From positions 1 to 52,135 of the IMG/VR virus record IMGVR_UViG_3300044675_006493: 52,135 nt of DNA; one strand, 5' to 3'. Below the pieces are notes generated by a model that was not told the DNA's origin, ran no database searches, and was given only the letters and a program-made list of their open reading frames with translations. Both the position numbers and the translations under genes were made by a program. This DNA is from a virus. Of this stretch, positions 9,670 to 52,135 are shown piece by piece. Each line of letters begins with the position of its first letter. Within the stretch, counting starts at the first letter, position 1.

Positions 9670-10138
9670 AGAGGAACAACTTCCTTATCAGGGGCCTCAA
9701 AAAGGTGCCTGTGAGGGCAACACTGCAAAATGTAGTCGTGACGACTGTCCCCTATTTGGCACTTTGCTAAAACCCAATAAAGACGGCAAGCGCCGCATTC
9801 GTGGATGTGGAGATGCTGTTGCTAGGGGAAAGCGCGCTAGGACTAAAGGCAAACGGGCGCAGCGTAAGGTCGCCAACAAGTTGGGCATTCCTTCCGGAAT
9901 CGACGGGGGGAACGAAGAGACTTGGCGTTCTTCTTTGAGGATCGAAGTTAAGGAAGGCAAGCAGGTTCAGGCTGCTGTTACTGCCTTTCGTAGGACAAGA
10001 GATCAATCAGAATTGGCGCGCCCTATAGGCGACAACAGACCTTTCATGGGTGTTGTCGTTCATGAAGGTCTTGAAGTGTGCTTGATTGCTTTGGATGATT
10101 TGCATACGGTCGCTGCACACGTTTTGTTGCAAGATTGA
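9662..10138 (+). CDS. Putative PDDEXK-type nuclease / resolvase-like protein
   Basis: 158 residues; the ATG at 9662 overlaps the methylase stop. The N-terminal ~45 residues hold five cysteines (CEG, KCSRDDC, RGC), a likely zinc knuckle. The core GKRAQRKVANKLGI...EETWRSSLRIEVKEGKQVQAAVTAF has an acidic residue before a strand with E-x-K, as in phage Holliday-junction resolvases and other PDDEXK nucleases. A resolvase would fit the recombination block and precede terminase packaging. The assignment is moderate because the catalytic Asp is not certain. Confidence 0.5.
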   Translation: MGEEEQLPYQGPQKGACEGNTAKCSRDDCPLFGTLLKPNKDGKRRIRGCGDAVARGKRARTKGKRAQRKVANKLGIPSGIDGGNEETWRSSLRIEVKEGKQVQAAVTAFRRTRDQSELARPIGDNRPFMGVVVHEGLEVCLIALDDLHTVAAHVLLQD

Positions 10139-10158: not shown

Positions 10159-10500
10159 ATGCATGAATGGATGGAAAGGGCGGCGTGCAAAAATTCAGAT
10201 CCCGACGATTGGTTCCCTTTGGAATATTCCATGCGTCACGAAAACAACATGACGCGAATTTGTATTGAGCAATGCGAAGTTCAGGAACAATGCCTTGAAT
10301 ACGCATTGGTGTCCAAAGAAACGCTCGGGATTTGGGGTGGCTTCAGTCCTGCTGAACTTAAAGGCATCAGGACAAAACGGTACAGCAGATGTTGTAAATG
10401 TGGTCAGAGATGGCCGAAGGCACGCTTGACGTATGAAACAACGTGTAGACCTTGCAAGATCAAAGAAATGGACGAAAGGGACGCGAGGAAAAGAAAATGA
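10159..10500 (+). CDS. WhiB-family iron-sulfur regulator with C-terminal zinc ribbon
   Basis: 113 residues from ATG 10159; a TTG at 10135 is an alternative start. WhiB signatures: WMERAAC, then CIEQCEVQEQC, and the GIWGG turn that contacts sigma-A region 4. The usual C-x2-C spacing is C-x3-C here (TGT ATT GAG CAA TGC), which is unusual for 4Fe-4S binding. A second cysteine set follows (CCKCGQRW...CRPCK), a possible zinc ribbon not found in standard WhiB. Phage WhiB proteins are known to alter host WhiB-controlled genes. Location in front of the terminase genes hints at a switch to late transcription. Confidence 0.82.
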   Translation: MHEWMERAACKNSDPDDWFPLEYSMRHENNMTRICIEQCEVQEQCLEYALVSKETLGIWGGFSPAELKGIRTKRYSRCCKCGQRWPKARLTYETTCRPCKIKEMDERDARKRK

Positions 10501-12600: not shown

Positions 12601-12837
12601 ATGACTACAATTAACGGTTGTACAGTTACTTCTGAAGACGGTTCTGTTATTTTCAAGCGTCAAAGGGTTGCTGTCGAAGATGGTGGAAGATTCACGTCTG
12701 TTGATCGCAGGACAGGGCGTGTCCGTTTGGATGCGTCGAATGCTTCCTTGGAAAAGACTGGAAAGAATCGTTGGGTTCTTTCTTCCCCTGAAGGGAATTT
12801 TGTGATTACGAAATCAGGGTGTGGGTGTGGCCGCTAA
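12601..12837 (+). CDS. Hypothetical small beta-rich protein
   Basis: 78 residues with alternating polar/hydrophobic strands (VTSEDGSVIFKRQRVAV, GRVRLDASNASLEKTG, NRWVLSSPEGNFVITKSG) and a terminal CGCGR. Possibly a small structural or decoration protein, since it directly follows the terminase. The stop overlaps the next gene. Not recognised. Confidence 0.6.
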   Translation: MTTINGCTVTSEDGSVIFKRQRVAVEDGGRFTSVDRRTGRVRLDASNASLEKTGKNRWVLSSPEGNFVITKSGCGCGR

Positions 12838-13759
12838 AGCCAAAGTTGCTGTTGTAGGCAACCCCAATTGGAAATGGAACGCTGAATCTGATTGGATCGA
12901 CGCTTTTCGCAATGAGGGGCACCAAGCAAAAATTGTTGATGAGGTTCTTTCTCCAAAAGACATTCTCGCTTCTGTAAAGGATTGCGACGTTGTTTTGTGG
13001 ATCTCATCTAGGGGCAATCACACCAAAGAATTTGTCAGGGACATTTCTTCCAAGAGGCGCACGGTTGCTTGGCACGCCGATTTGTTTTGGGGTTTGAGCC
13101 GTCCCAATTGGCAGGATTCCTGTATGTGGGCCTGCGATTTGGTTTTTACCGCCGATGGGGGTCACGAAAAAGAATGGGAAGAAATGGGCGTGAACCATTT
13201 CTGGATGCTTCCCGCCGTGAGAGAAGTCTGGACGAAATCCAACGGCATCCTTAAACAGAAATTTGATTGCGATGTTGCTTTTGTTGGCAACGATGGTCGT
13301 TCCTATCACAAGGAATGGCCTTATCGTTCAGAATTGATTTCTGCTTTGAGGGACATGTGTCTGAAAAACGGTTGGAGTTTCAGAAACCCGGGTGGTTCTT
13401 CTCCTAGGGTGGAACGCAACCGCCAAATGAATGATTTTTATAGATCTGCCCGCGTCACTGTTGGGGATAGCCTTTGTCTAGATTATGACAAATCTCTATA
13501 TTGGTCGGATCGTGTCTACGAAGCGTGTGGTAGGCGAGGTTTTCTGATCATGCCCCACATTGACGCCCTAGAGGCCCAAAGCGAAAATAGAGTCCCTTCC
13601 TACCAGTGGGGGGACTGGAACGGCTTAGAGAGCAAAATAGGGGCCTTTCTGGGCAATCCTGACGAACGTTCTACGATTAGCGGGAACTGCCGTGCTTGGG
13701 TGGCGGAAAACCATACCTATAATCATCGTGTGCGTTCTTTGTTGGCGATGCTGCCTTAA
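12827..13759 (+). CDS. Glycosyltransferase-like protein (CgeB/GT4-like)
   Basis: 310 residues from GTG 12827 (AGGG 7 nt upstream); GTG 12821 is the alternative. The first half has Rossmann-like strands (KVAVVGNPNWKWN, DVVLWISSRGN, RRTVAWHADLFWGL). The second half has VAFVGNDGRSYHKEW, then SARVTVGDSLCLDYDKSLYWSDRVYEACGRRGFLIMPHIDAL, where the Y-E-A-C-G-R-R-G-F pattern is the nucleotide-sugar binding region of glycosyl transferase family 1_2/CgeB proteins. Probably adds a sugar to a phage or host component. First enzyme of a five-gene modification cluster. Confidence 0.75.
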   Translation: MAAKAKVAVVGNPNWKWNAESDWIDAFRNEGHQAKIVDEVLSPKDILASVKDCDVVLWISSRGNHTKEFVRDISSKRRTVAWHADLFWGLSRPNWQDSCMWACDLVFTADGGHEKEWEEMGVNHFWMLPAVREVWTKSNGILKQKFDCDVAFVGNDGRSYHKEWPYRSELISALRDMCLKNGWSFRNPGGSSPRVERNRQMNDFYRSARVTVGDSLCLDYDKSLYWSDRVYEACGRRGFLIMPHIDALEAQSENRVPSYQWGDWNGLESKIGAFLGNPDERSTISGNCRAWVAENHTYNHRVRSLLAMLP

Positions 13760-13788
13760 CAACGTGAAATAGGAATTTGGGGAAACAA

Positions 13789-14799
13789 ATGCGGCTAGGA
13801 ATGCTCGTCAGGGACGACAACGGCGGATTGGGAAATCTTACCTATGACGCTTTTTCTAATTTGAGGCCAGACGTTACTGTCATAGTTCAGTCACGACCCT
13901 GTAGGGGAGAACCAAGACCCCACCTGTTCGAAGAAGCATGGACAGAAACAATCTGTGTCGAAAACCCAATTACTGACGCCCAGTGGGAGACAATCGCCCC
14001 TAAAGCAGACATTTGGTGGACAGCAGAAACTTGGTACAACGACAACGCAGAATCAATTATTAAAAAGGCTGGAGGGAAAACCGTTCTTTATGCGATGCCA
14101 GAACTGTTTTCTGGTTCGTCAGCAGATCAAATTTGGAACCCAACCCAATATCTTCAAAACAGGCTTCCCCTTAATTCCAAAGTCGTTCCTTGGCCAACAT
14201 CACCGCCAGAAAATTGGTTCCCTAAAACCAAAGTATCCAAAATCCTCCATATCTCAGGCGGCGCACAATACGACCGAAACGGGACAGAGATCTTTCTTGA
14301 TTCTTTGCAATACGTTGAAGGTGAATGCGAAATTATTCTTCATCAACCCGATGGAAAGAATCTCACCACGAATCTTCATCGCAGGAAATTCGCAAAAGGA
14401 ATCAAGATCAACCACAGCACGGACTACGAAAAGTCTCTCAACTCTTACATGAGATGGGCAGACGCGCTTGTCCTACCTCGTCGTTACGCCGGTCTTTGTC
14501 TCCCAGCATTTGAAGCGTTCGGCTATGGATGCCTTGTGGCAATGCCTGAAGTTGATCCGCAGGCGTTTTGGCCCATCATTGGTTTTCAGGCGATAAAGGA
14601 ACGTCCTCGCTTGATGAAGGGTGGGAAAATCCCCATGTGGAACATGGAACCCTTTGTTCTCGCCAAACAAATAAATGTCATGCTTGAATGGGACGTTCCA
14701 ACAGTCGTAAGGCTCTCAGAGGAAGGGCGAACTTGGGCTGAAAAGAACTCTTGGGAAAACCTTCTTGAAACATGGAAGACGGCTTTCCAGAATGTTTAG
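13789..14799 (+). CDS. Glycosyltransferase-like protein (GT-B fold)
   Basis: 336 residues; the ATG at 13789 follows GGGGA by 7 nt and is preferred over TTG 13777. N-terminal Rossmann half with GMLVRDDNGGLGNLTYDAFSN; C-terminal half with KILHISGGAQYDRNG, a YEKSLNSYMRWADALVLPRRYAGLCLPAFEAFGYGCLVAMPEVD segment. The acidic Glu in PAFEAFGYG matches the E-x7-E-like donor-binding motif of GT4-type enzymes. A second glycosyltransferase with a different sequence suggests stepwise building of a glycan. Confidence 0.75.
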   Translation: MRLGMLVRDDNGGLGNLTYDAFSNLRPDVTVIVQSRPCRGEPRPHLFEEAWTETICVENPITDAQWETIAPKADIWWTAETWYNDNAESIIKKAGGKTVLYAMPELFSGSSADQIWNPTQYLQNRLPLNSKVVPWPTSPPENWFPKTKVSKILHISGGAQYDRNGTEIFLDSLQYVEGECEIILHQPDGKNLTTNLHRRKFAKGIKINHSTDYEKSLNSYMRWADALVLPRRYAGLCLPAFEAFGYGCLVAMPEVDPQAFWPIIGFQAIKERPRLMKGGKIPMWNMEPFVLAKQINVMLEWDVPTVVRLSEEGRTWAEKNSWENLLETWKTAFQNV

Positions 14800-15340
14800 A
14801 TACCGGGATAAAACGCTTCGACATTTTTGGCATCCGTACAACTGGACCCACACAAACGAGAGGCAAGTAGAACTTCCCGTTGTTTTTGATTGGTTGAGCA
14901 GGCGTTCGGGTTCAGGGCTTGAAGTAGGAAACGTAACGCCCAACTACATTTCAACAAACCATCATGTAATCGACATTGTTGAAAAGCATGATCACGTTGA
15001 TAACACAAATCTATTCGATATTGAAGGAACTTACGATTGGATTCTGGCAATCTCAACAATTGAACATGTTGGATGGGACAACGAAATAGGTAAGCGAAAT
15101 CCGTTTGAAGCCATTTGTCATCTGCTTTCACTACTCGCTCCAAATGGGTCCATGATGGTTACCGTCCCCGTTGGCTACAACTGGACGTTGGATCAAGACC
15201 TAACAGAGGGGACTGGTGCAGATAGATGGGGTTGCGTTTATCGCAGTCAAGGAGAATGGGAATACAAAGAAGGCTTCAAATGGGAGCCGTACACAATTGG
15301 GGCTTGCTCCGTGTGGTTTGGTGAATGGGGACCAGAATGA
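14792..15340 (+). CDS. SAM-dependent methyltransferase-like protein
   Basis: 182 residues; ATG 14792 overlaps the previous stop by 8 nt. Motif I is degenerate (SGLEVGNVTPNY instead of LDxGxGxG). Later strands fit class I methyltransferases: YDWILAISTIEHVGWDNE and LLSLLAPNGSMMVTVPVGYN. These short methyltransferases occur within sugar and polysaccharide clusters. The substrate is unknown, perhaps the sugar placed by the neighbours. The stop overlaps the next ATG (ATGA). Confidence 0.68.
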   Translation: MFRYRDKTLRHFWHPYNWTHTNERQVELPVVFDWLSRRSGSGLEVGNVTPNYISTNHHVIDIVEKHDHVDNTNLFDIEGTYDWILAISTIEHVGWDNEIGKRNPFEAICHLLSLLAPNGSMMVTVPVGYNWTLDQDLTEGTGADRWGCVYRSQGEWEYKEGFKWEPYTIGACSVWFGEWGPE

Positions 15341-15777
15341 AAGTCAATTTGGGTTGCGGGAAAGACATTAAAAAGAACTGGGTTAACTGCGATCAGCATC
15401 CCCTAGAGGGCGTAAACGTCGTAATGAACCTTGACGAGTTCCCATGGCCGTTCGAAGACTCGTCCGTTGACGAAATCTTTGCTTCCCACGTATTCGAACA
15501 TGTTGGCAAACCAATTGAGTTCGTTTTGGAGTGTTGGAGAATCCTGAAAAAGGGGGGTAAGGCAACCATTGTTTGTCCTCACTGGACTTCAGAAAACGCC
15601 TTTACCGATCCGACACACGTTAGATTCGTGACAGATCGCACCTTTGATTACTGGTGTGAAGGAGAAATGTTGAACGGGCCTTTGGGGGCACAGTTCCTAG
15701 GCGACACATTTAAATTCAGAAAACAAAATGTTCGTCGCAACGGAGGCGACATCATCTTTTTCCTCAGGAAAATTTGA
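15337..15777 (+). CDS. SAM-dependent methyltransferase (class I)
   Basis: 146 residues. KVNLGCGKDIKKNWVNCD is motif I with the LGCG loop. PWPFEDSSVDEIFASHVFEHV gives the acidic and EH motifs, then CWRILKKGGKATIVCPHW. This is the compact Methyltransf_11 type common in glycan-modification operons. Start overlaps the preceding methyltransferase stop. Two adjacent methyltransferases suggest methylation of two positions or of two sugars. Confidence 0.8.
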   Translation: MKVNLGCGKDIKKNWVNCDQHPLEGVNVVMNLDEFPWPFEDSSVDEIFASHVFEHVGKPIEFVLECWRILKKGGKATIVCPHWTSENAFTDPTHVRFVTDRTFDYWCEGEMLNGPLGAQFLGDTFKFRKQNVRRNGGDIIFFLRKI

Positions 15778-15779
15778 AA

Positions 15780-16840
15780 TGAAGATTCACGCTCTTGCTT
15801 CCTTCAAACACTACATCGACCATATAGCCCCAATCTGGCGTTCGCTTGATCCTGACCTCACGGGAAATTTCGTAGTTAACAATTTGGCGATGAGCAGGTA
15901 CGCGGAATCCCTAGGGATCTACGCCCAACCCATGAAGCAGGCAGGTCGCCTCAACTTTGCCCTCAGGACACAAGACCCAATTTTGGTTGCTGGTTATACC
16001 GACCTTCAAAAGGTCCACAAGCGCCCCATCGTTTTTATCGAACACGGGGCGGGACAAACATACATTAGGAATGATGGCAGCATCCACGGCGGATACTCGG
16101 GTGGAGTCAACAGGGACAAGATTGGCTTCTACGTTTGCCCCAACGAAACGGTCTTGCAACGCAACTTGAAGGCTTATCCTGATGCACAAGGCATCGCTGT
16201 TGGAAGTCCCCGCTTAGATGATCTGTCTTTCGAACGAAAACTGGCAGCGCCTAGAAACGAACTAAACATAGGCATTGCTTTCCACTGGGATTGCAACATC
16301 GCTCCAGAGGCAGGCTCAGCGTTCTCCGACTTCTATTACAAGATTCCAGAATTTGTGAAATACGCCCAGACATGCGGAATGAACATTGTGGGGCACGGCC
16401 ATCCTCGTGCATGGTCCTATCTTTACGGTTGGTGGAAGGACCAAAAAGTCAGAACTGAATCTGACTGGTTGAAGGTGAGTTCAGAAATCGATTTGCTTAT
16501 CATCGACAACAGTTCCATTCTTTTTGAAGCGGCGGCATTGGACATTCCGGTTGTTTTGATGGAATCAAGCAAGTGGCGTAAGAACGTTCATCACGGACTG
16601 AGATTCTGGGATTACGCAGATATAGGGCCGTCAGTCACCAAAGACGACGATCTTGGCGAAGCGATATCTGAAGCGTTCCACAAAAAATACGCAAAACGCA
16701 GAAAAGAAGCCTCGTCTGCCGTGTATGCATGTCCGCCAATGCTGGATAGAATGTACCAATACTCATCCACTCAGGATAGGTTGTCCTCGCGCAGAGCCGC
16801 TGCCGAGATCATTCATTGGTGTCAGAAAGGAAAACGTTAG
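15780..16840 (+). CDS. CDP-glycerol/TagF-like glycero- or glycosyl-phosphotransferase
   Basis: 353 residues, ATG 2 nt after the previous stop. Segments typical of the CDP-glycerol glycerophosphotransferase/GT-B superfamily: RPIVFIEHGAGQTYI, a middle FHWDCNIAPEAG, KYAQTCGMNIVGHGHPRAW, then the C-terminal DLLIIDNSSILFEAAALDIPVVLMESSKW, which matches the D-Y-S-S-x-x-F-E-x-x-x family motif. Such enzymes build teichoic-acid-like polymers. Here it probably adds a polyol-phosphate or sugar to a phage structure, or alters the host wall. The stop overlaps the next gene's GTG. Confidence 0.72.
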
Positions 16841-17226
16841 TGGGAAACTGCGGGCAGATGAAGGGATACAACTCAGGTTGCCGTTGCGAAGAATGCACAG
16901 AAGCAAACCGTGTATACATGAGGGCCTACAGGGAACGTCAAAGAAAAGACTTTGACAAGGCTGTTATCAACTTTGAGAGTATCGACGAAGGAGATACTTC
17001 TTGGGTTAAGTTTGCGGCTTGCCAAAAAGAGGATACAGAAACCTTTTTCCCTCAACGGGGAGATTGGAAAATGGTCCAAAAAGCATTAGACATTTGTAAA
17101 ACCTGCACAGTTGTCGATGATTGTTTGGCTTATGCTCTTCGAACAGATCAGACGGTAGGTGTGTGGGGAGGAAAATCAGGAAGGGAACGTAGGGCCATGT
17201 CAGTTCTTATGAGGGAAACAGCATGA
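16840..17226 (+). CDS. WhiB-family regulator with N-terminal zinc-knuckle-like segment
   Basis: 128 residues from GTG 16840 (AAAGGAAA 6-8 nt upstream). N-terminal part: YNSGCRCEECTEANRVYMRAYRERQRKD, a small Cys cluster plus basic helix common in phage proteins of Actinobacteria. WhiB core: FAAC, then CKTCTVVDDC (canonical C-x2-C-x5-C) and GVWGGKS. Four cysteines for one 4Fe-4S cluster are present. Second WhiB gene of the window, with better-conserved ligands than the one at 10159. Stop overlaps the next gene. Confidence 0.85.
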   Translation: MGNCGQMKGYNSGCRCEECTEANRVYMRAYRERQRKDFDKAVINFESIDEGDTSWVKFAACQKEDTETFFPQRGDWKMVQKALDICKTCTVVDDCLAYALRTDQTVGVWGGKSGRERRAMSVLMRETA

Positions 17227-37197: not shown

Positions 37198-38943
37198 CTA
37201 CTTGTTGATTCGTGCGCCCAACTTCAAAACGGCTTCGTCGGAGAAGCCAAGAATGTCAACAATCGCCTCTAATTTAGCGATTCTTGCCTTCAAAAGATCG
37301 TTTGTGACATTCGACTCACCACAGCCGCAATCGTCGTCAATTACGCCAGCAGCAACCAAAGCGACCTGATTGCCTGAAGCAGTAACGCCCGCTTGCACCC
37401 CGCGAGGAACCGGGAAACCGGGAACATTTACAGCCAAAGCAGCAACAAGTTCAAGATTGCCCTTCAGGCTTCGCCAGTCACCAGAAAGTGAAGCACCCCT
37501 GAATTCGCGAACCTGTTCGGCGTTAATGCCCGGGCGAAGCGCGCCAGCAACCCAAATTCCGTAATCGTCTTCACCACAAACAACGTCTGCAACAGCAAAA
37601 CCGGTGTGTTCGTAGTGGGCGATAGCAGCAGCAGCCGAAACGCCCGGACGAGTCGAAGCATGTCCAGTACTCATCGTAATCGACCCAACCGCAACATTTT
37701 CACCGTTTTCGCAAACAATGTAACCGGTGCGGAAATACGAATAATCGGTTGCGCTACGAGGAGGCATCAAACAAATGTCGCTACGACCCGTATGGCAGGT
37801 GTTCCACAGCGCAAGATGCCCATAAACATACCCTTGATCTGAAATGAACAGAGGGGTAGGCGCATCAAGATCAGGGTTTTCAAACCAATCTGAAGGAGGA
37901 GCAGTGGGGGCTGACGAAGCAATCAAAGCGTGATACGTCGCGTCGTCAAGGTTTTCGGGGCCACCCCAAATATTCGCGGAGGCCACCTGAACCACTTTGG
38001 CTGATTCAATCGCTTGAAACGGGGCGAGTGTCACGGCCCCAATCTTTCCTTCGACGAGATGCATAATCTCTTCGTTGTCGTATTCGATAACTTCGTCACC
38101 GACCTCCATGCTGACACCAGTCAAGAAGCCATCACGAACCTCTGCGGCGACCTGACGACCAAAGTCCGTGTTCAGATTGAATGTCGCTGACGCAACAAGA
38201 ATCGGGCCGGTGCCATCACCTGAAGAAGCATCGATCGAATCGACAGTAACGCCGTCCAGCGACATGACACGCAAGAAGTTATCGATACGGCCTGCACGCT
38301 GATTGGGGTCATGATTGACCGTCAACGAAAGAGGCGGGTTACGCCAAGACAACGATCCTAGATCGGCAACACGCCCATCTGAAGTGACTTCGCCTTCAGT
38401 GGCAACAACAATAACGGCGCGAGTAGGAAGATCAAAATCGGTGACAACCATAACGTCTTCGTTGTCGTCCTCTTCGTCCTCTTCGTCTTCAACCCCCGGC
38501 ACGATCTGAGGATCAGACATTTCCTCGTCGTCCTCGTCGTCCTTAGGGCCTTTGTAACCCAGTTCGTTCTCGGCACGCATGGAAACAATTGTAGCCGAAG
38601 CCTCACCCTCGCGCTCCAACCTAGCCGCGGTTCGTTCCGCCCAACGCATTGCGCGTTCAGAAACGGGTTTTGTTACGCCGCCACCCCACAAAAGGTGAGC
38701 GACCTGACCCGGTGACGGATAATCCTTGTCGCCCCGTTGAGGCGCTGTATCCAAATCAACCATGTGACGGGCGAACCATGCAGCCATACGCTTAGGTTTG
38801 TTGTCAGGAAGGTCGCCGTCTTCTACGGCTTGACGGGCCTCACGCACCGTTTGGGGCATCATGCCGTCGCCTGATTGACCTGCCTCATGGTAGGCAAGGC
38901 CACGACGAAAGTTGTCACGCATCCATTCAGGAACCCGGGGCAT
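37198..38943 (-). CDS. Prohead (capsid maturation) protease
   Basis: 581 residues. N-terminal ~130 residues: MPRVPEWMRDNFRRGLAYHEAGQSGDG, a PAAR-unlike helical domain seen in actinophage proteases; an acidic stretch DDEDDEE follows. Protease core at ~165-310: TRAVIVVATEGEVTSDGRV, SLTVNHDPNQRAGRID with the conserved His, then GFLTGVSMEVGD with the catalytic Ser, and VTLAPFQAIESAKV. Catalytic type is the HK97-like Ser/His protease, which removes the capsid scaffold domain. The C-terminal ~250 residues (GYVYGHLALWNTCHTG and beyond) are an extension. It lies two kb from the capsid gene with accessory genes in between. Confidence 0.82.
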   Translation of the reverse strand: MPRVPEWMRDNFRRGLAYHEAGQSGDGMMPQTVREARQAVEDGDLPDNKPKRMAAWFARHMVDLDTAPQRGDKDYPSPGQVAHLLWGGGVTKPVSERAMRWAERTAARLEREGEASATIVSMRAENELGYKGPKDDEDDEEMSDPQIVPGVEDEEDEEDDNEDVMVVTDFDLPTRAVIVVATEGEVTSDGRVADLGSLSWRNPPLSLTVNHDPNQRAGRIDNFLRVMSLDGVTVDSIDASSGDGTGPILVASATFNLNTDFGRQVAAEVRDGFLTGVSMEVGDEVIEYDNEEIMHLVEGKIGAVTLAPFQAIESAKVVQVASANIWGGPENLDDATYHALIASSAPTAPPSDWFENPDLDAPTPLFISDQGYVYGHLALWNTCHTGRSDICLMPPRSATDYSYFRTGYIVCENGENVAVGSITMSTGHASTRPGVSAAAAIAHYEHTGFAVADVVCGEDDYGIWVAGALRPGINAEQVREFRGASLSGDWRSLKGNLELVAALAVNVPGFPVPRGVQAGVTASGNQVALVAAGVIDDDCGCGESNVTNDLLKARIAKLEAIVDILGFSDEAVLKLGARINK

Positions 38944-43103: not shown

Positions 43104-43958
43104 TTATGGGCCTTCCGAACCTAGGGAAAGTTCCGCGATGGCCCTGTAGTGGTCGTCAAGCCGAGCAAACTCCGATGCTTGTGCGTGTTCCGTGGGCTGC
43201 CAACACATACAGTTTTCCGCGCTTTCTTCGCACAGCCAACAGAATCCGCACTCTTCGCAGTCCGTGTTGGAGTAGTCCGACTCTGCCCGCCAGATGTGTA
43301 GACAGTTTTTACAGGACATGTAATCGTCCGTTGCCCGCGGTGTGGACATGGTGGACGTAATACCGCTAAGGCTGTAGATACCGCTAGCGCTGTACCGCGA
43401 TGGACGCCAAGCCTCGTAACTCCGATTGGACCACCACACTCCGTCATCCCAATGTCCGAGATGTTCGTTCATGATGTAAATGCCGTATTCCGTGTCAGGG
43501 TGCGCAGACAGAAAAGCCGCTTTGCTGGTGCCCAACCACTTTTCCGTTTTGGCCCACCACTCGTCGTCGTCGATCCGCGATGGCTCAACCGACTTGAGGT
43601 TCTCTTCCGTCCAAATCCGTGTGTCCGACTTGCGTCGTCCGGGCTTGATGGGCAGAACTCCGTTGTGAGCGATAGCGATCCGCTCATCGTGCGCCCAAGT
43701 GAACGGGTGACAGTTTTGAACCGTCTCTCCGCCACCTGTGGAGAACCGATGATGGAAGATGCCCCAACAATCCGTGTGGGCCTCCCACACCGATCTGAAC
43801 TCTGTCCACGCTTCCGTGAAATCCATGGACCGAAATCGTGCGATGTGACCGTCAAGGAGGATGGCCCAACCGAACCCGTCAGGGTTGTTGTGCGCCGCTT
43901 CCAACATCCGCTCGTCGTTTAGTTCCGCTTCGTTTGAAAAAACCGTAAGTAGACACAT
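43104..43958 (-). CDS. Class II glutamine amidotransferase (GAT-II) with Cys-rich tail
   Basis: 284 residues. Starts MCLLTVF, so removal of Met leaves the Cys2 nucleophile of N-terminal-nucleophile glutaminases; this fixes ATG 43958 (GGAGAG upstream). Family motifs: PDGFGW (26-31), HHRFSTGG (69-76, the R-x-S/A-T-x-G substrate loop), NCHPF (82-86), AHNG (97-100). The C-terminal third has a cluster of cysteines (SCKNC, DCEECGFCWLCEESAENCMC), likely zinc-binding. It would release ammonia from glutamine or cleave a gamma-glutamyl amide. It follows the amidoligase gene after 1 nt (TGATATG), so the two are co-translated and probably form one complex. Confidence 0.85.
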   Translation of the reverse strand: MCLLTVFSNEAELNDERMLEAAHNNPDGFGWAILLDGHIARFRSMDFTEAWTEFRSVWEAHTDCWGIFHHRFSTGGGETVQNCHPFTWAHDERIAIAHNGVLPIKPGRRKSDTRIWTEENLKSVEPSRIDDDEWWAKTEKWLGTSKAAFLSAHPDTEYGIYIMNEHLGHWDDGVWWSNRSYEAWRPSRYSASGIYSLSGITSTMSTPRATDDYMSCKNCLHIWRAESDYSNTDCEECGFCWLCEESAENCMCWQPTEHAQASEFARLDDHYRAIAELSLGSEGP

Positions 43959-43959
43959 A

Positions 43960-45723
43960 TCAGTTGCTCTCCGTTTCGTAGACTCGCCCGTCAATCCGAT
44001 TGATGGCGTTGCTGTACTTTTCCGCTCGTTCTCCGTCTTTCAGCCATTCGTAGAATGTGCCGAAGTCCGAAGCATTTCCGTATACGATTTCTTGTGACTT
44101 CATGACCCGCGAGTAGTTGACGAGTCCGTGAAGGAACTCTAGGTACGCCGCGAGTGTTGTTGGCAGTAGCGATGACCGAAACATCCGCACTTCGATAGTG
44201 TTCCGATTTTGGTAGTTGACGGCTGAACCGCGATCAGGCCAGCCGCGTCCCGTGGCGTAGGTGATAGCGTTCGCCATTCCGCGCATGGCGTCACCGTGTC
44301 GTCCGTACGATGAACAGTTGCGTCCCGCAAACCGTTCAAGTTCTGTACGCCACTCACCGAAGTAGTATTGGAACCGCGCGATGTGCGCCGCACTTTTGAA
44401 CGCTTTCCGACTGATGTGAACATGAATGCCCGCGTTGGCTCCACGCCAACCCGACCATTTGTGTTCGTTCCGCAGTTCGTCCCATGGGAACGTTTTCCAC
44501 AACTCCGCGTGGGCCGCGAGTGTGGCTGGGTGACTGACCATTTCAGGACCGCTAACCGTGCAGTCCGATTTGGCGTACAGGAAACCGTTGTTGTAGATGT
44601 CCGATACTGCGATTGCGTTTCCGCCCTCACGATAGTTTCCTCCGCTTAGGACGTTGAGTTCCAACTCAACTCCGAGGAAGATTGGGTCGTCAGAGTCGCC
44701 GCTGGCTATCCGTCGAACTCCCTCATCCGTTACTCCGTGGAACTCCGGGCTTGGCTTGTAACTGTACGACTGAACATACAAATCTCCGAAGTTTCCGTCG
44801 TGATCCGAAATGCTGCCGTGAGGCCACGCACCGCACGAAGGGCATGCTTCGTCCGTCCAAGAGACTTCACCGCATTCGTCGCAATCCCGAATGTATTCCG
44901 AGGTACAGTCTTGACAATATGGATCTCCGTTGGGGGCTTCCACCGTATTGTCTCCGTGGACGACACAACCGCAGTGACCGCAGGATGTGAAGTCGCCCGA
45001 GTCGTCACAACCGTGGCAAACAGGGTTCCCCGCATAAGACACCATATCGCCCCGTTGGAACGGACCGCCGCACGCCTCGCACCAAGTCCAGTCACGCCGA
45101 CTTGTGTCGTAGAGTCTGTATAGCCGACTTCTCCACGCACCCCGAATATCCGCGTAAAGGGATTCGATGGAAAACCGTTGGCCCGCGTAATCTGCGCAGA
45201 AAACCGAAAGGAAAACAGCAACCGCCCCAGCGTGTTCCGCGTTCCACTCAATCAAATCTTCCGCGTTGCCCGTCTCCCGCAGCAACTGGTACTGTAACCG
45301 CAACCCGAGGATATCTTCCGCCTGAGACAGCGCAGCGTTCATGAGCCGTTCATTGCCCTCATATCCGTGGGGCCACCGAGGAAGCCATACGTCCCGCCAA
45401 GCGTCCCTAGCCGCTTGACGCCGCATGAAAAGGTTGGTATCCGAAATGTTGTTGAGTGCCCGCAACCGATTGTCGTCCTCGGTCAACCAGCCCGCGTCAT
45501 CGTTGTATGCGGCCGTTTGTTCCCGCAAGGCATCTTCGCCCCGCCTATTGAGGAGAACTCCGAAAAAGCGAATGAGGCCGCTTGCCGTCATGGCGGGATA
45601 GGAAACTCCGAGTTCCGTCAACCGCTGGTGATACAGGAACGCAGGCGCATCTCCGCGCAGCGTTTCTATACAATGCGTAATCCGCATTGCCGCGGATTCT
45701 AGTTCTTCCGATGATGTTGGCAT
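43960..45723 (-). CDS. Zinc-ribbon amidoligase (GS-like amidoligase_2 family)
   Basis: 587 residues; ATG 45723 has AAAAGGAGCGG upstream. Residues ~1-210 are helical. Residues ~212-300 hold about six CxxC/CxxxC pairs (CEAC, CHGC, CGHCGC, CQDC, CDEC, CPSC), treble-clef-like zinc ribbons. Residues ~345-540 match the GS-like amidoligase core: GVELELN (351-357), SDCTVSGPEMVSHP (386-399; usual form D-G-S-x-G-x-E-x-V-S), GIHVHIS (432-438), QNRNTIEVRMFRSSL (505-519). The conserved Glu, Asp and His residues bind ATP/Mg, and the family joins a carboxylate to an amine. The zinc ribbons may bind a nucleic acid or protein target. Driven by its own promoter (45764-45792). Confidence 0.85.
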   Translation of the reverse strand: MPTSSEELESAAMRITHCIETLRGDAPAFLYHQRLTELGVSYPAMTASGLIRFFGVLLNRRGEDALREQTAAYNDDAGWLTEDDNRLRALNNISDTNLFMRRQAARDAWRDVWLPRWPHGYEGNERLMNAALSQAEDILGLRLQYQLLRETGNAEDLIEWNAEHAGAVAVFLSVFCADYAGQRFSIESLYADIRGAWRSRLYRLYDTSRRDWTWCEACGGPFQRGDMVSYAGNPVCHGCDDSGDFTSCGHCGCVVHGDNTVEAPNGDPYCQDCTSEYIRDCDECGEVSWTDEACPSCGAWPHGSISDHDGNFGDLYVQSYSYKPSPEFHGVTDEGVRRIASGDSDDPIFLGVELELNVLSGGNYREGGNAIAVSDIYNNGFLYAKSDCTVSGPEMVSHPATLAAHAELWKTFPWDELRNEHKWSGWRGANAGIHVHISRKAFKSAAHIARFQYYFGEWRTELERFAGRNCSSYGRHGDAMRGMANAITYATGRGWPDRGSAVNYQNRNTIEVRMFRSSLLPTTLAAYLEFLHGLVNYSRVMKSQEIVYGNASDFGTFYEWLKDGERAEKYSNAINRIDGRVYETESN

Positions 45724-45738
45724 TTCCGCTCCTTTTCC

Positions 45739-45759
45739 GTGTCCCCCCGCTGGGGACAC
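45739..45759 (-). promoter_or_regulatory. Leader hairpin of the amidoligase mRNA
   Basis: 8-bp perfect stem GTGTCCCC/GGGGACAC with a 5-nt loop directly at the predicted 5' end, 16 nt before the start codon and next to the Shine-Dalgarno. Such a 5' hairpin may stabilise the mRNA or control ribosome access. The sister promoter at 46855 also has a GCCCC-CTTT-GGGGC hairpin in its leader. Confidence 0.6.
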
Positions 45760-45763
45760 TCCC

Positions 45764-45792
45764 ATCTTACTATGCGAATAGAACCGAATCAA
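45764..45792 (-). promoter_or_regulatory. Promoter A: amidoligase operon
   Basis: Minus strand: TTGATT (45792-45787), 17-nt spacer, TAAGAT (45769-45764). The spacer CGGTTCTATTCGCATAG differs by one base from that of promoter B at 46855-46883, and the homology continues ~25 nt upstream of the -35 box. Typical sigma-70/sigma-A promoter. Confidence 0.82.
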
Positions 45793-45818
45793 TACCTTGT
45801 AAATACTTTTTTATTCCG

Positions 45819-46097
45819 TCACAAAACAACAAACCGAGGACACTCCATTTCCGTTACCTCCGCCAAAAGCATCTTCAAAGCCGAATCAAACTTTTCCGAT
45901 GTTCCGACGATTCTTATCTCCTCATCGAAGGCATCCAAACCGCGATGCGCCGTCTCCACGATGTAATGATTCAATCCACCGTGAACCGCTCCAAGCCACA
46001 TCAACCCGACTGGAAGCCCAGTATCCGTTCTTTTCCACGAATGGCCGTCGAAAACGTCAGCGTCACCGTTTTCTGTTTTCCGAACGTAGATAGTCAT
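45819..46097 (-). CDS. Hypothetical small protein
   Basis: 92 residues, GGAGGG 7-9 nt before ATG 46097, overlapping the next-upstream gene by 4 nt. Beta-like start (TIYVRKTENGDADVFDGHSWKRTD), then a helix-rich end (EKFDSALKMLLAEVTEMECPRFVVL). Last gene of the promoter-B unit. Promoter A lies just past its 3' end. No family recognised. Confidence 0.6.
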   Translation of the reverse strand: MTIYVRKTENGDADVFDGHSWKRTDTGLPVGLMWLGAVHGGLNHYIVETAHRGLDAFDEEIRIVGTSEKFDSALKMLLAEVTEMECPRFVVL

Positions 46098-46582
46098 GGC
46101 AGGACCCTCCGCTCAACCGACTTGTGACCGTTGGCAAACATGTTGTTTGTGACATTGACCGCACTTTTTTCATGGTGTAGTAACGTCCGCCTAACCGCAT
46201 CTGCCCAAGGCATCCGCGCAGTAGGACGCGCCGTGTCAATGTATGCTTCGTAGTTGCCGAAGTCAGGTGAATCCGCGGATTTCTGTGCTTCCGACAAAAG
46301 GATCTCCGCACCTAACGTGTAACCGAAACGAAACGTTTCCGCGGCTTGCTTCAACACCGTTTCAGCATTCACGTTGGCCCGCGCATCGTTTCCTAGGAAC
46401 TCGTCGTCCGCACCAACAACGTCATACAGCCATTCCCCGACTAGGCAATGGTCACCGTTGTCGTCCACGTAACGACAGTAACCACCGACCCCCAAAGGAT
46501 TCCGTTTGTGGCCGTTGAACACAACGATTCGCCGCATCCATTCCGCGACATCCTCGCCCGTGAAAACCCGCGCATTGTTCAT
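46094..46582 (-). CDS. Hypothetical protein of the accessory block
   Basis: 162 residues. AAGGAGG 7 nt before ATG 46582 decides the start; an ATG at 46606 overlapping the previous stop (TGATG) is possible. Contains VAEWMRRIVVFNGHKRNP, then GGYCRYVDDNGDHCLVGEWLYDVVGADDEFL, a pattern found in small phage/bacterial proteins of unknown function with a histidine/cysteine pair. A helical centre follows, then MPWADAVRRTLLHHEKSA. May be a partner of the amidoligase set. Confidence 0.6.
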   Translation of the reverse strand: MNNARVFTGEDVAEWMRRIVVFNGHKRNPLGVGGYCRYVDDNGDHCLVGEWLYDVVGADDEFLGNDARANVNAETVLKQAAETFRFGYTLGAEILLSEAQKSADSPDFGNYEAYIDTARPTARMPWADAVRRTLLHHEKSAVNVTNNMFANGHKSVERRVLP

Positions 46583-46605
46583 GTTGATTCCTCCTTTTTC
46601 CGACA

Positions 46606-46797
46606 TCACTCGCACTCCGCGAACAACTCTGACGCCGTGCCATTCCAACCCAACTCAATACCGTTTTCTACGCACTCCGCTGTGGCGTTAGAACCGTAAA
46701 CCGCATTCAACCGAAAATGGGTGCCTATCAGGGCCGCAATCAGCAACGCCGACAGAACAACCCAAACTCCGAAAGCAAACCGCTGTGAAATGTACAT
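46606..46797 (-). CDS. Small membrane protein, first gene after promoter B
   Basis: 63 residues, AAAAAGGAGCGGAA before ATG 46797, almost identical to the start region of the amidoligase gene. One membrane span (VWVVLSALLIAALIGTHF, ~11-28), then a short outer domain with cysteines (TAECVENG and FAECE). Function unknown; an envelope-located role is likely. Confidence 0.65.
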   Translation of the reverse strand: MYISQRFAFGVWVVLSALLIAALIGTHFRLNAVYGSNATAECVENGIELGWNGTASELFAECE

Positions 46798-46854
46798 TTC
46801 CGCTCCTTTTTGTTACGACCCGCTGGCCGTCGCCCCCTTTGGGGCCGAGACCCC

Positions 46855-46883
46855 ATTCTACTATGCGAATACAACCGAATCAA
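46855..46883 (-). promoter_or_regulatory. Promoter B: accessory minus-strand operon
   Basis: Minus strand: TTGATT (46883-46878), 17-nt spacer CGGTTGTATTCGCATAG, TAGAAT (46860-46855). Nearly identical to promoter A for ~50 nt. The leader carries a GCCCC/GGGGC hairpin and a strong Shine-Dalgarno. Confidence 0.85.
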
Positions 46884-47504
46884 TACCTTTTAGATACTTT
46901 TTTATTCCGCTGCCGCTGCCCGCTTTTCGTCGCGCTAACGGAAAACGGGCAACGGACCGATAGGGTCGATATCGTCCGAAATGCGCCGAATCACGACAAA
47001 AAACAGGCTCCGATGAGGTTGTTTTGTTCGTTTGGTGCCGATAACCTCCCCTTAGATAGCGAGAACCTTGACAATCCGCCAACAACGACACCCGCGATAA
47101 GGCCAGCGCGTCAGCGCGATTGCCCGCGATCCGCACACCGCAAAAGCGGTTTCGGAAACGGAAAACGGCTCGACCTCTCGCGGAATGTCGGGTTTTAGTC
47201 GGGCGCGCGGCTCGAACTCATAGTGCTCGGCCAAGCCCGCCTGAGGCGGGAGGCGGAAGGGCGCGGGCGCTCCAATGGGCTGGAAGTTTCTTGGGTCCCG
47301 CCGAGTTGAAGCCAAAATTTTTTTGAAATTTTTTTGATTTTTTTTTGCGGTTGGAAATATTTTTGCTGATGAGAATATTTTTGTTGGATTTTGGTTGTTG
47401 TGGCTATAACATGTTCTTTGCTGCTACAAGCGTTTGATGCGAGCAGAAGCAAAGATCAAATGTTGGCCATACTAAAAGCATTGGCACAGATAAAGGAGTC
47501 AAGC
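46884..47504. other. Divergent intergenic region with repeat R2
   Basis: About 620 nt without a convincing gene. It holds the upstream part of promoter B, a GC-rich stretch, a perfect hairpin CCCGCC-TGA-GGCGGG (47236-47250), direct repeat R2 (47243-47340, with GCTCCAATGGGC), T-runs to 47346, and a possible TTGTTG...TATAAC promoter (about 47382-47410) for the plus-strand gene at 47505. It separates leftward and rightward transcription. Confidence 0.6.
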
Positions 47505-47951
47505 ATGCAGGAAAATAATCGAACAATGTTTTTTGAGGCCGCAGATGTTTACGGTCTTTCTTATTGTCTTGATTTTGTTGCTTCCTATATTTCTTGTGAA
47601 TTGGATATCCATCTTTTTGCATCGATGTTTGACGGAAAAGTTTGCAAGGAACCTTTCACGTTTTCTTCGCAAGGAAAAACCAATGAAGATCTCAGCGAAA
47701 ATTGTTTGGATTCAATTTTTGAGGATTGTTCCAAGTTTCTTTTGGAGAAATCTTCCTTACTTCTTCATTGCAAAGCCTTTGGTTTGGACGGCAACAAAGC
47801 AGGTATGACATTTTCCTTGGGGAGAAATGAGAGGCCCAATCCTCTGGAGTTTTCTTTCCCGGGTGACGCAATACATATTTTGGAACTTTCTTCCTTCATG
47901 TACGGGCGCACTTCTTATTGCGAAAAAGAAGGAAAGATTTGTATTGGTTGA
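47505..47951 (+). CDS. Hypothetical accessory protein (cassette cargo 2)
   Basis: 148 residues; AAAGGAG 6 nt before ATG 47505. Several cysteines and Phe/Ser-rich strands (LSYCLDFVASYISCELDIHLFASMFDGKVC, KSSLLLHCKAFGLDGNKAGMTFSLG). No family recognised. Framed by R2 upstream and R2' downstream, as the unrelated gene 42046-42444 is by R1 and R1'. The AT-rich codon use is unlike cargo 1. Confidence 0.6.
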   Translation: MQENNRTMFFEAADVYGLSYCLDFVASYISCELDIHLFASMFDGKVCKEPFTFSSQGKTNEDLSENCLDSIFEDCSKFLLEKSSLLLHCKAFGLDGNKAGMTFSLGRNERPNPLEFSFPGDAIHILELSSFMYGRTSYCEKEGKICIG

Positions 47952-47969
47952 TTGAAAAACATTTTTGCC

Positions 47970-48031
47970 GACCCCCCCTAATGTTTTTTTGAGATTTTTA
48001 GACCCCCCCCACCCCTTTGGGGAAACGAACT
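47970..48031 (+). repeat. Direct repeat R2', downstream flank and leader of the AIG2-like gene
   Basis: GACCCCCCCTAATGTTTTTT (47970-47989) is identical to 42574-42593; the end ACCCCTTTGGGGAAACGAACT matches R1' closely and forms a CCCC-TTT-GGGG hairpin. It ends 12 nt before the AIG2-like gene. Confidence 0.65.
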
Positions 48032-48042
48032 TTTGGAGCATC

Positions 48043-48456
48043 ATGAATTTCGAAGATTGTCATTTGCCTTACGCTGTGTACGGTTCTTTGCGGCCTGATT
48101 GTGGGAACGATGGGTTGTGGAGAAACCGTGCGAATGTCAGAGATGGGAAGTGGTTCGTTGATGGTTACAGGCTCGTTGCGCATCGCAGTGGCATGTTTCC
48201 TTTTGCTTTGCCTTCTCCCTTTGGACATATCTGCGTCGATTTAATTGATCCACTTTCTCATCTTCAGGAGGATCTGCGTATTGATTTTGATCTTCTGGAG
48301 GGTTACCCCAATTTTTACAATCGCATCAAGGTCGATGTGTACGGCGAGAACTCTCAGTGTGTTGCTTGGCTTTACACACCTAACGATTCTGAAAGTTATG
48401 AGCATTTGCCTCGCGTGTCTGGTGGGAACTGGAAAAATTATCTAATCAATGTTTGA
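48043..48456 (+). CDS. AIG2/gamma-glutamylcyclotransferase-like protein
   Basis: 137 residues, TTTGGAG 5 nt before ATG 48043. YAVYGSLR (10-17) is the glycine loop Y-G-T/S-L-R of the GGCT/AIG2 fold. IDFDLLEGYPNFYNR carries Glu86, the likely general acid/base, in the family motif L-D-x-x-E-G-x-x-x-x-Y-x-R, then VDVY...CVAWLY as the last strands. Family enzymes cyclise gamma-glutamyl amines to 5-oxoproline, freeing the amine. In phages and bacteria they co-occur with amidoligases and GAT-II enzymes, both encoded 2.3-5 kb away here. Confidence 0.8.
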   Translation: MNFEDCHLPYAVYGSLRPDCGNDGLWRNRANVRDGKWFVDGYRLVAHRSGMFPFALPSPFGHICVDLIDPLSHLQEDLRIDFDLLEGYPNFYNRIKVDVYGENSQCVAWLYTPNDSESYEHLPRVSGGNWKNYLINV

Positions 48457-48523: not shown

Positions 48524-48766
48524 ATGAGTGACAGCAATTCCACAGAGAAGCGTGCCCTTCACGCCTACCTTGACGTAGGCGCTTACGAACGTTTTTCTGA
48601 CTTTGCCTCTAATGGGGGCGTCTCGGTGTCCGGTTTGCTGCAAGCCATTGGCCAGAACCTTGATGGCAAGAGTGAAAACATCAACCTCAATAGTTTGCTG
48701 CTTGATGCACGTTCGGTTGATTCTGATCGACGCAAGCGGCCCATGTTGCGAAAGGGAAACAAGTAA
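48524..48766 (+). CDS. Ribbon-helix-helix-like DNA-binding protein
   Basis: 80 residues; AAAGGA about 6 nt before ATG 48524 favours this start over ATG 48497. Residues ~10-45: KRALHAYLDVGAYERFSDFA then GVSVSGLLQAIGQNL, the strand-helix-helix of Arc/CopG-type regulators. Basic C-terminus (DRRKRPMLRKGNK). It lies right after the possible operator/promoter at 48475-48490, so it may regulate itself. The stop overlaps the DUF932-like gene by 1 nt. Confidence 0.62.
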   Translation: MSDSNSTEKRALHAYLDVGAYERFSDFASNGGVSVSGLLQAIGQNLDGKSENINLNSLLLDARSVDSDRRKRPMLRKGNK

Positions 48767-49782
48767 TGCCTCACAATTTGGAACAGTACGGCGAGGGAAC
48801 TTCTTTCGCCTATAACGGTGCTGAGAACCCTTGGCATCGTCTTGGTGTGAAGATGGATGGTCTTTCGACGGCTGAAGAGATGCTTTTGGCGGCGCGCGCA
48901 GACTATTTGGTGAGTTCTGAACCTCTCTATGTCATGACTGAGAATGGGGCAGTTCAAATCGAAGGTCGTCGCGCCACTGTGCGCAGCGTGCGCGAAGACG
49001 ATGATCGTGATCCTTCGGATCGTATTCTGGGTGTTGTCGGTGAGTCGTATGGCATTGTCCAGAATCGTGATGTTCTGAATCGTGCGTTGGCAGTTGTGAA
49101 CGCTGACGGTAAGGCTGTTGTTGATACTTGTGGCGTTCTAGGCAAGGGCGAACGTTTCTTTGCTTACATTGATTTGGGTCACATGAGCATTGATCCAAAC
49201 GGTATCGACGACAAAATCACTCGTGGTTTGGGTGTTTTGACTTCGCATGATGGGACTGCTGCTGTCACTTATGCGATGAGCAATATCCGTTGGGTTTGCC
49301 AGAACACTGTGACTGCCGGTTTGAACGCTGCCACTCGCATGTTTCGCGCTCGTCACACAACGAATGTTGAATCTATGCTTGTTGACGCTCAAAGAGTTTT
49401 GGGTATTGCCGACACGTGGGAACAAACTTTTTCTCAGTTGGCTGAGCGTCTTCTGCGAGTAAACGACGGGTCGAATTCCGCTAAGGCGCATGACATCATG
49501 AGTCGTGTGGAGGGAATTCTGTGGCCCATGGGTGATGAGCCTTCACGCCATGCAGAAACAATTTCTGAGACTCGCAGCATGGAGTTGCATTCTTTGTTGG
49601 ATTCAGATACTTGTGGCAATGGTTTCGGTTACAACGGTTGGGCAATTTACAATGCGTTCGTTGAATACTCTGATCATGTTCGCCCGCGTTTGTCTGACGA
49701 GCGTCGTGCAGAGGCAACAATTCTTGGCTTGACCGATGATTGGAAGAATAAGGTCGCTAACCTTGTTCTTGCAGGAAGTTAG
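48766..49782 (+). CDS. DUF932-like phage/plasmid protein
   Basis: 338 residues. Family marks: PWHRLGVKMDG near the start, VVGESYGIVQNRDVL, FFAYIDLG, LTSHDGTAAVTYAMSNIRWVCQNTV, and a late NGWAIYNAFVEYSDH. DUF932 proteins (phage/plasmid-like TIGR03299 group) are frequent in phages and conjugative plasmids. They are usually early and of unknown biochemical role. Full length for the family; coupled to the RHH-like gene. Confidence 0.88.
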   Translation: MPHNLEQYGEGTSFAYNGAENPWHRLGVKMDGLSTAEEMLLAARADYLVSSEPLYVMTENGAVQIEGRRATVRSVREDDDRDPSDRILGVVGESYGIVQNRDVLNRALAVVNADGKAVVDTCGVLGKGERFFAYIDLGHMSIDPNGIDDKITRGLGVLTSHDGTAAVTYAMSNIRWVCQNTVTAGLNAATRMFRARHTTNVESMLVDAQRVLGIADTWEQTFSQLAERLLRVNDGSNSAKAHDIMSRVEGILWPMGDEPSRHAETISETRSMELHSLLDSDTCGNGFGYNGWAIYNAFVEYSDHVRPRLSDERRAEATILGLTDDWKNKVANLVLAGS

Positions 49783-50587: not shown

Positions 50588-50923
50588 GTGGTGGCAGCCC
50601 GACGCGATCTAGAGGTTTATCAGGGCGACACGTTCACCCATGAGATTCGCATTGTTGATGCGGATGGTGATCCGATCAATGTGACGGGTAGAACGTTTGA
50701 GTCGCAGGTAAGGCGTCGTACTTCTTACGACACTATCGAAGCAACGTTTTCTGTAGATACGTCTCAGGCCGCGACTGGTGTTGTGGTTTTCACCATTGAT
50801 GCTGCCACTTGCGCCGATTTGGAGACAGGCGTTCATCGTTACGATGTTCACCAAATTGTTGGCGGTGTGGTTTTGACTTTGGTTTATGGTCGGGTCAACA
50901 TTCGTGGTGAGGTCACCCGTTGA
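50588..50923 (+). CDS. Small structural protein upstream of fibre (baseplate-like N-terminal domain)
   Basis: 111 residues from GTG 50588; GTG 50591 (AGG 7 nt upstream) is equally likely. [38 protein letters not shown] is the beta-sandwich start seen in BppU-like and fibre N-terminal attachment domains: D.G.P.N.TG..F..QVR. It ends with [14 protein letters not shown]. Its stop overlaps the TTG start of the collagen-like gene by 3 nt, so it is translated with it. Likely connects the fibre to the tail. Confidence 0.65.
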
Positions 50924-52135
50924 GCAGCGAACAAACAACTGTTGTTGTTGATTCTGGTGCTGTCACAACTGTTGAGGTTGTAGACGAGCAGGTCACAATC
51001 GTTTCGATTGAGGATCGTGCTGTCACCATTATTGGTACTGGCGAGATTGGTCCTGCTGGCCCGCAAGGTGCGACAGGGCCGCAGGGTGTAACAGGGCCGC
51101 AGGGGGCTGCTGGGCCTACGGGTGCGACAGGTGTTCAAGGTCCTACAGGGCCGCAGGGTTCCACCGGTCCTCAGGGTCAGATCGGTCCCCATGGCCCGAC
51201 TGGTCCGACCGGCCCCATCGGGCCGCAGGGCGCTACGGGCGCTATCGGGGCGACGGGCGCTGTTGGCCCAACTGGGGCTACGGGTGTTCAGGGGGCCACG
51301 GGTGCTGTTGGCGCTACCGGAGCGGTTGGTCCTACGGGTGCGACCGGGGCGGTTGGTGCGACAGGACCGCAAGGTGCTGTGGGTGCGACGGGGGCGACCG
51401 GTCCGCAGGGCGCTCAGGGGCCGGTAGGCGATACAGGTCCGCAGGGTCAGACAGGACCTCAGGGCGCTATTGGACCGCAGGGTGCGACGGGTGCGGTTGG
51501 TGCGACTGGGGACACCGGCCCGCAAGGTCCGCAAGGTCCGACAGGTTCGCAGGGCGACACGGGGGATACCGGCCCTCAGGGTCCTACCGGTCCGCAGGGT
51601 GTGACAGGTCCTCATGGTGACACGGGGGCGACAGGTCCTCAGGGACCTCAGGGTGCCACAGGTCCGCAGGGTGCGACCGGCTCGCAAGGACCGACCGGCC
51701 CTCAGGGACCTCAGGGGGCAATTGGCCCGCAGGGTGATACGGGTGCGACTGGCGACACCGGCGCGACTGGCGACACCGGACCTACCGGTCCGCAGGGTGT
51801 TATAGGTCCGCAGGGTCCTGTAGGAGCGACTGGTCCGCAGGGCGATACCGGACCGACTGGTCCGCAGGGTTCAGTTGGCGCTACTGGTCCGCAGGGCGAC
51901 ACTGGCCCTCAGGGTTCTACCGGTCCACAAGGGGCCGTTGGCCCGCAAGGGGCGACTGGTGCGACTGGTTCGCAAGGCCCGACTGGCCCGCAGGGGGATA
52001 CAGGCCCAACCGGGCCGCAAGGCGCGATTGGGGCGACCGGTCCGCAAGGCGACACAGGACCGCAGGGTGCTATTGGCCCTCAGGGCGCTACAGGTGCGCA
52101 AGGGCCGCAAGGCGCTACGGGAGCGACGGGTGTTC
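50920..52135 (+). CDS. Collagen-like tail fibre protein, N-terminal part (runs off the window)
   Basis: TTG start at 50920 inside TTGA, overlapping the previous stop. Residues ~1-43 are a non-collagen head ([38 protein letters not shown]). From residue ~44 to the window end (405 codons plus one base) every third residue is Gly ([13 protein letters not shown] style). No stop is met. Content and frame match the C-terminal part at 1-1192, but a direct join of window ends would be out of frame by one base class (1 leftover base + 1 base). Full protein probably about 800 residues or more. Confidence 0.85.

Follow-up and report, generated by a model that had tools for sequence, protein, structure and literature searches.

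Why should a virus encode, within one short region, an amidoligase, a class II glutamine amidotransferase (GAT-II), and a GGCT/AIG2-like protein, and on what would these enzymes act? The region lies at positions 43104-48456 of IMGVR_UViG_3300044675_006493, a single virus record from IMG/VR, whose 52,135 bases were analyzed in full (the window) and include genes for portal, terminase, capsid, tape-measure, and endolysin proteins. Three open reading frames (ORFs) are found exactly where a sequence-only reading of this DNA had placed them: a zinc-ribbon amidoligase of 587 amino acids (43960-45723, minus strand), a GAT-II of 284 amino acids (43104-43958, minus strand), and a GGCT/AIG2-like (GGACT; Pfam ID PF06094) protein of 137 amino acids (48043-48456, plus strand). 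The ligase stop codon and the GAT-II start codon are, as that reading had also noted, separated by one base (TGA-T-ATG). Our main finding is that the ligase and the GAT-II form an obligate, co-diverging pair, on which the GGCT depends without the converse being true. The interpretation that we favor, at a probability of roughly 0.45, is that the pair is an amide ligase of two subunits, dependent on ATP and glutamine, and that the GGCT acts downstream of it, the likeliest target being a cell wall precursor.

The identity of the ligase and of the GAT-II follows from their relatives, a profile search, conserved catalytic residues, and predicted folds, and the three enzyme families proposed by the sequence-only reading proved to be real. 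Direct comparison with Pfam gave a divided outcome: the GGCT exceeds the cut-off of PF06094 (50.7 bits versus 22.8, covering profile positions 2-119 of 120), whereas the window ligase itself has no match to Amidoligase_2 (PF12224) at E<1 and the GAT-II scores 16.2 bits with GATase_4, under the curated cut-off of 23. Of 23 records in which the pair or relatives of it occur, 19 exceed the curated cut-off of PF12224, and ligase relatives from three loci (L004, L005, and L008) each exceed it directly; the GAT-II relative from ctgrD200 reaches 26.7 bits with GATase_4.

The ligase consists of an N-terminal part of ~210 residues, which has little counterpart among 70 aligned relatives, a ribbon array (residues ~215-297), and a ligase domain (~332-587). 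AlphaFold predicts the latter (residues 332-587; predicted local distance difference test score mostly 86-98) to have the GS/GCS carboxylate-amine ligase fold, with YbdK as the best structural match (Z 12.8, root mean square deviation 4.1, 225 aligned residues), followed by plant glutamate-cysteine ligase (Z 12.0), glutamine synthetase (GS; 11.7), and the depupylase Dop (10.9); gamma-glutamylmethylamide synthetase is also among the closest folds. The active site is intact, with E353, E355, D387, E394, H434, H436, R468, E511, and R513 invariant in the 70 relatives, a set that includes the acidic and histidine residues expected earlier to be conserved; by analogy, these positions may form the metal and ATP sites. 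The ribbon cysteines (C215/C218, C236/C239, C248/C251, C270/C273, C281/C284, and C294/C297) show a weak resemblance to LIM-type domains (E about 0.001). Because the core of the array (C248/C251/C270/C273) is kept in 93-100% of the relatives and CxxC motifs are also found in the ligases of bacterial loci (median 6), the ribbon-ligase fusion marks a lineage and is not a peculiarity of one phage.

The GAT-II has the expected Cys2 nucleophile, R71, H98-N99-G100, and D112; across 57 sequences, C2 is found in 56 (with one gap) and R71, N99, G100, and D112 in all 57. Its C-terminal cluster of eight cysteines (residues 216-252), which the sequence-only reading had pointed out along with the ligase ribbons, is just as well conserved, each cysteine being kept in 98-100% of the 57 relatives; the GATs of bacterial loci are mostly devoid of CxxC motifs (median 0). 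Judged from their cysteine patterns, the clusters of both proteins presumably bind zinc. A profile search with the GAT-II matched GlmS (E 2.4e-8), and its predicted fold is equally close to the GlmS glutaminase (Z 13.1) and to the gamma-glutamyl amidohydrolase EgtC (Z 12.8).

Linkage of the two genes was examined in two independent scans of IMG/VR, one anchored on the ligase and one on the GAT, taking the best 80 loci from more than 500 relatives in each. The ligase scan of virus contigs was run with a three-sequence alignment, since the broad alignments (A1 and A2) were too diverse to serve as queries; a scan with the lone window protein returned no matches. In 78 of the 80 ligase-anchored and 78 of the 80 GAT-anchored virus loci, the partner gene is immediately adjoining, on the same strand, with the ligase first, and all 4 exceptions among these 160 loci are at contig ends. 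Removal of near-duplicates collapsed 170 loci to 89 groups. In bacterial genomes, mostly of Oscillospiraceae and related Clostridia but also of two actinobacteria and Ignavibacteriae, the pair is adjacent at 74 of 79 loci. The neighborhood survey thus bears out the co-occurrence of ligase and GAT-II (156/160 virus and 74/79 bacterial loci). Distance matrices of the two proteins are correlated (r=0.83; partial r=0.73 with DnaB as the control). Recombinase genes are often found near the pair in bacterial loci, and replication genes in many of the virus relatives.

The GGCT belongs to a transcription unit separate from that of the pair, as it lies on the opposite strand and ~2.3 kb away; its G+C content is 0.45 versus 0.56 for the pair. 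An LLEGYP motif, which may hold the catalytic Glu of the family, was spotted by eye in its sequence, and a sequence search of the PDB gave no match. Within the window lineage, a GGCT was found in 2 of 50 records, those of the window and of a Rhizobium phage, which is a lower bound, as many records of the lineage are fragmentary. From the GGCT side, all eight phage relatives viewed with wide flanks belong to cassettes that include genes for an amidoligase or a GAT-II and usually also for a COOH-NH2 ligase and an ATP-grasp enzyme. Among 20 GGCT-selected phage records, which were hand-picked for variety from the match list and include several mutually related ones and a few already-known cassette carriers, Amidoligase_2 is present in 20, GAT-II in 19, and the second ligase (PF14395) in 17; the background rate of relatives of such an amidoligase is 269 in 50,697 phage records (about 0.5%). 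The co-occurrence of all three families, as put forward by the sequence-only reading, therefore stands for phage GGCTs, which belong with these cassettes, but the GGCT is irregular in this particular lineage. In other words, the GGCT depends on the pair and the pair does not depend on the GGCT. Given this one-way dependence (20/20 versus 2/50), the simplest reading is that the GGCT acts on the product of the pair, i.e., downstream of it, which provides a testable order of steps. A view of the GGCT as an unrelated passenger gene, suggested by the count of 2/50, was overturned by the search from the GGCT side (20/20 with amidoligase, 19/20 with GAT-II). The gene is flanked by a stretch with a G+C content of 0.39 (47505-48044), which holds an ORF without family matches and together with which the GGCT may have arrived.

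We infer that the products of the two minus-strand genes form one two-subunit enzyme, in which the GAT-II would split glutamine by means of its N-terminal cysteine and the GS/GCS-fold subunit would, at the expense of ATP, convert a carboxylate into an activated acyl phosphate. The activated carboxylate would then be joined to the ammonia passed on from the GAT-II, or to a glutamine-derived amine, yielding an amide on a cytoplasmic molecule of the host. The zinc ribbons of both subunits may keep the complex assembled or guide it to its target; the sequence-only reading had thought target binding likely, but a role in joining the subunits is just as plausible. Afterwards, the GGCT would strip gamma-glutamyl groups, in the form of 5-oxoproline, from the products or by-products. 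The likeliest target, a peptidoglycan precursor peptide that would be altered early in infection to the benefit of the phage, is suggested by analogy with the cassettes of the phiEco32/RIO-1 type, and cytoplasmic wall precursors are the leading guess.

Several observations weigh against this interpretation. The EgtC tie of the predicted GAT-II fold leaves room for hydrolysis of gamma-glutamyl conjugates in place of ammonia supply. Two bacterial loci (L195 and L234) have a ligase without an adjacent GAT, away from contig ends. A single-ORF fusion of ligase and GAT-II was looked for and none was seen. Finally, the wall target is the literature's own conjecture, and in the literature searched we found neither a biochemical test of it nor biochemical proof of a role in wall modification or nitrogen metabolism.

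The main rival to the amide ligase is an add-and-trim scheme, in which the ligase attaches the gamma-carboxyl of glutamate to an amine (a protein lysine, a polyamine, a wall diamine, or a thiol precursor), and the GAT-II and the GGCT are alternative erasers. Sequence alone would fit both, and we consider this scheme somewhat unlikely but the most serious of the competitors. BtrJ and BtrG of butirosin synthesis are such a pair, and phage tf has a GGCT annotated as BtrG-like. Several of the closest folds of the ligase (the group of YbdK, glutamate-cysteine ligase, GS, and gamma-glutamylmethylamide synthetase) activate the glutamate gamma-carboxyl, and the sampled phage GGCTs occur only ever alongside an amidoligase. 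A further parallel is offered by EgtA and EgtC of ergothioneine synthesis, a gamma-glutamylcysteine synthetase and a class II N-terminal nucleophile amidohydrolase that work together. EgtC ranks among the best fold matches to the window GAT-II, but the sequence identity is under 20%, and EgtC has a small-molecule substrate and no zinc cluster. However, an obligate 1:1 arrangement of writer and eraser with nearly overlapping genes is less expected than one two-subunit enzyme, and the GGCT never substitutes for the GAT-II in the sampled virus loci.

The zinc ribbons might instead direct the same chemistry against phage DNA or a protein of either host or phage, serving host takeover or anti-defence. 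In keeping with such a role, LIM-like ribbons are carried by the ligases of both virus and bacterial loci and by the GAT-II of the virus lineage, and the pair is located close to replication genes in many relatives and close to recombinase genes in bacterial loci. Nevertheless, the scanned window genes include two methyltransferases and a dCMP deaminase but no recognized DNA hypermodification genes, and the neighbors share no candidate protein substrate. The small neighboring genes, which the sequence-only reading had put forward as substrates or adaptors, are without relatives in the related loci sampled, and so nothing singles them out as either. On balance, a protein or DNA target seems distinctly improbable. 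We are more skeptical still of a broader scheme, in which the pair would serve not wall modification but a widespread, reversible tagging by glutamylation or amidation, with the ribbons of both proteins selecting a specific host macromolecule and the GGCT occasionally serving as the eraser. A role in auxiliary nitrogen or glutamate metabolism, in which the enzymes would simply return glutamine and gamma-glutamyl compounds to use in phage growth, has been proposed for phage ZRK32, which encodes an amidoligase, a glutamine amidotransferase, and a GGCT and promotes growth with nitrate or ammonium (PMC10945688), but it is very improbable here, as hosts already possess GS and GATs and it leaves the fixed two-gene module and the conserved cysteine clusters unexplained.

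What phage amidoligase/GAT-II cassettes do has been a matter of conjecture since 2009, and the concept of a peptidoglycan modification cassette is reportedly due to Iyer et al. 2009. A cassette larger than the set in the window was given that name, with a possible role in blocking superinfection, in PMC5498523, and this was repeated in PMC10580990 and PMC11318856; in all three, its action on the cell wall is a conjecture. The podovirus cassettes of the RIO-1/phiEco32/LUZ24/CW02 type share Amidoligase_2, GAT-II, and GGCT with the window (PMC5498523, PMC3890496) and, like its genes, are located among early or replication genes. They differ in their second COOH-NH2 ligase (PF14395), which is present in 17 of the 20 GGCT-selected records versus none of 50 records of the window lineage, the window included, and in an ATP-grasp enzyme that is missing from the window. 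The latter was searched for with a custom profile, built from seven phage genes, that recovered the held-out positives L252 and L255; RimK (PF08443) as a probe gave 0/50 yet also missed the ATP-grasp enzyme annotated in the Rhizobium phage. In addition, the seven phiEco32/LUZ24/RIO-1-type amidoligases examined have no CxxC motif, in contrast to the window ligase with its zinc ribbons.

Among the closest known counterparts is the gp105-gp106 pair of mycobacteriophage Marvin and its cluster relatives, in which the amidoligase likewise adjoins and precedes the GAT-II, the ligase N terminus is Cys-rich, and the GAT-II has a C-terminal Cys cluster. The alignments cover 56% of the window ligase and 95% of the window GAT-II at only ~28% identity, the intergenic gap is 79 nucleotides versus 1, no GGCT was found in Marvin, and the window ligase has ~210 additional residues at its N terminus. 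The OM43 phages MEP401 and MEP402 also have adjoining ligase and GAT-II genes, for which a superinfection role was proposed (PMC10580990), but their GAT-II is devoid of the eight-Cys cluster, and a GGCT was not found in MEP401. Thus, Marvin and the OM43 phages already provide examples of the pair, and proteobacterial phages examples of the trio; this analysis adds figures for the obligate pairing, the conserved Cys clusters of both proteins, a distinction between two cassette architectures, and a zinc-ribbon pair accompanied by a GGCT. No form smaller than this zinc-ribbon version, with its two genes and neither second ligase nor ATP-grasp enzyme, was seen. Public virus contigs hold more than 500 of its relatives, and bacterial genomes hold others, many of them close to recombinase genes, which makes it the simplest system for finding the substrate.

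The pair probably has its own transcript, apart from the start of the transcript that serves the small genes at 45819-46797, because a promoter-like element is duplicated ahead of the pair and of the 46606-46797 gene. This element (TTGATT-N17-TAAGAT, minus strand) lies at 45764-45792, 41-69 bases upstream of the ligase ATG, with a near-identical copy at 46855-46883 that a separate scan also picked up, and a flanking element is likewise duplicated (45782-45818 and 46873-46909) before the two minus-strand units (2 matches, 0 expected by chance). A palindrome, GTGTCCCC...GGGGACAC, was read directly in the 5' leader of the ligase gene just before the ribosome-binding site (~45731-45751, minus strand). 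A search of Rfam families gave no match.

Two WhiB-type genes in the window (10168-10356 and 17002-17199), along with the kinship of the pair to that of Marvin, suggest an actinobacterial host. A WhiB-related gene is also found downstream of the GAT-II in ~47 of the 89 related virus groups. A DUF932/TIGR03299 gene (48766-49782) is located near the pair in the window, and in the Flavonifractor locus L195 a gene resembling this family (9197-10132) immediately follows the ligase, where a GAT-II would otherwise stand. In Actinocatenispora comari (L172, 5003-8966), a single GAT-II is located between two amidoligase-type ORFs. Elsewhere in the window, a block with glycosyltransferase and methyltransferase matches (12821-16840) lies beside the terminase gene, and there are two portal-like genes (2388-4841 and 37198-38943), with matches to phrog_776 (portal) and phrog_859 (portal/head maturation protease). 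Collagen-like frames with G-P-Q repeats are open at both record ends (2-1189 and 50920-52134) and may represent one gene that was split when a circular genome was linearized.

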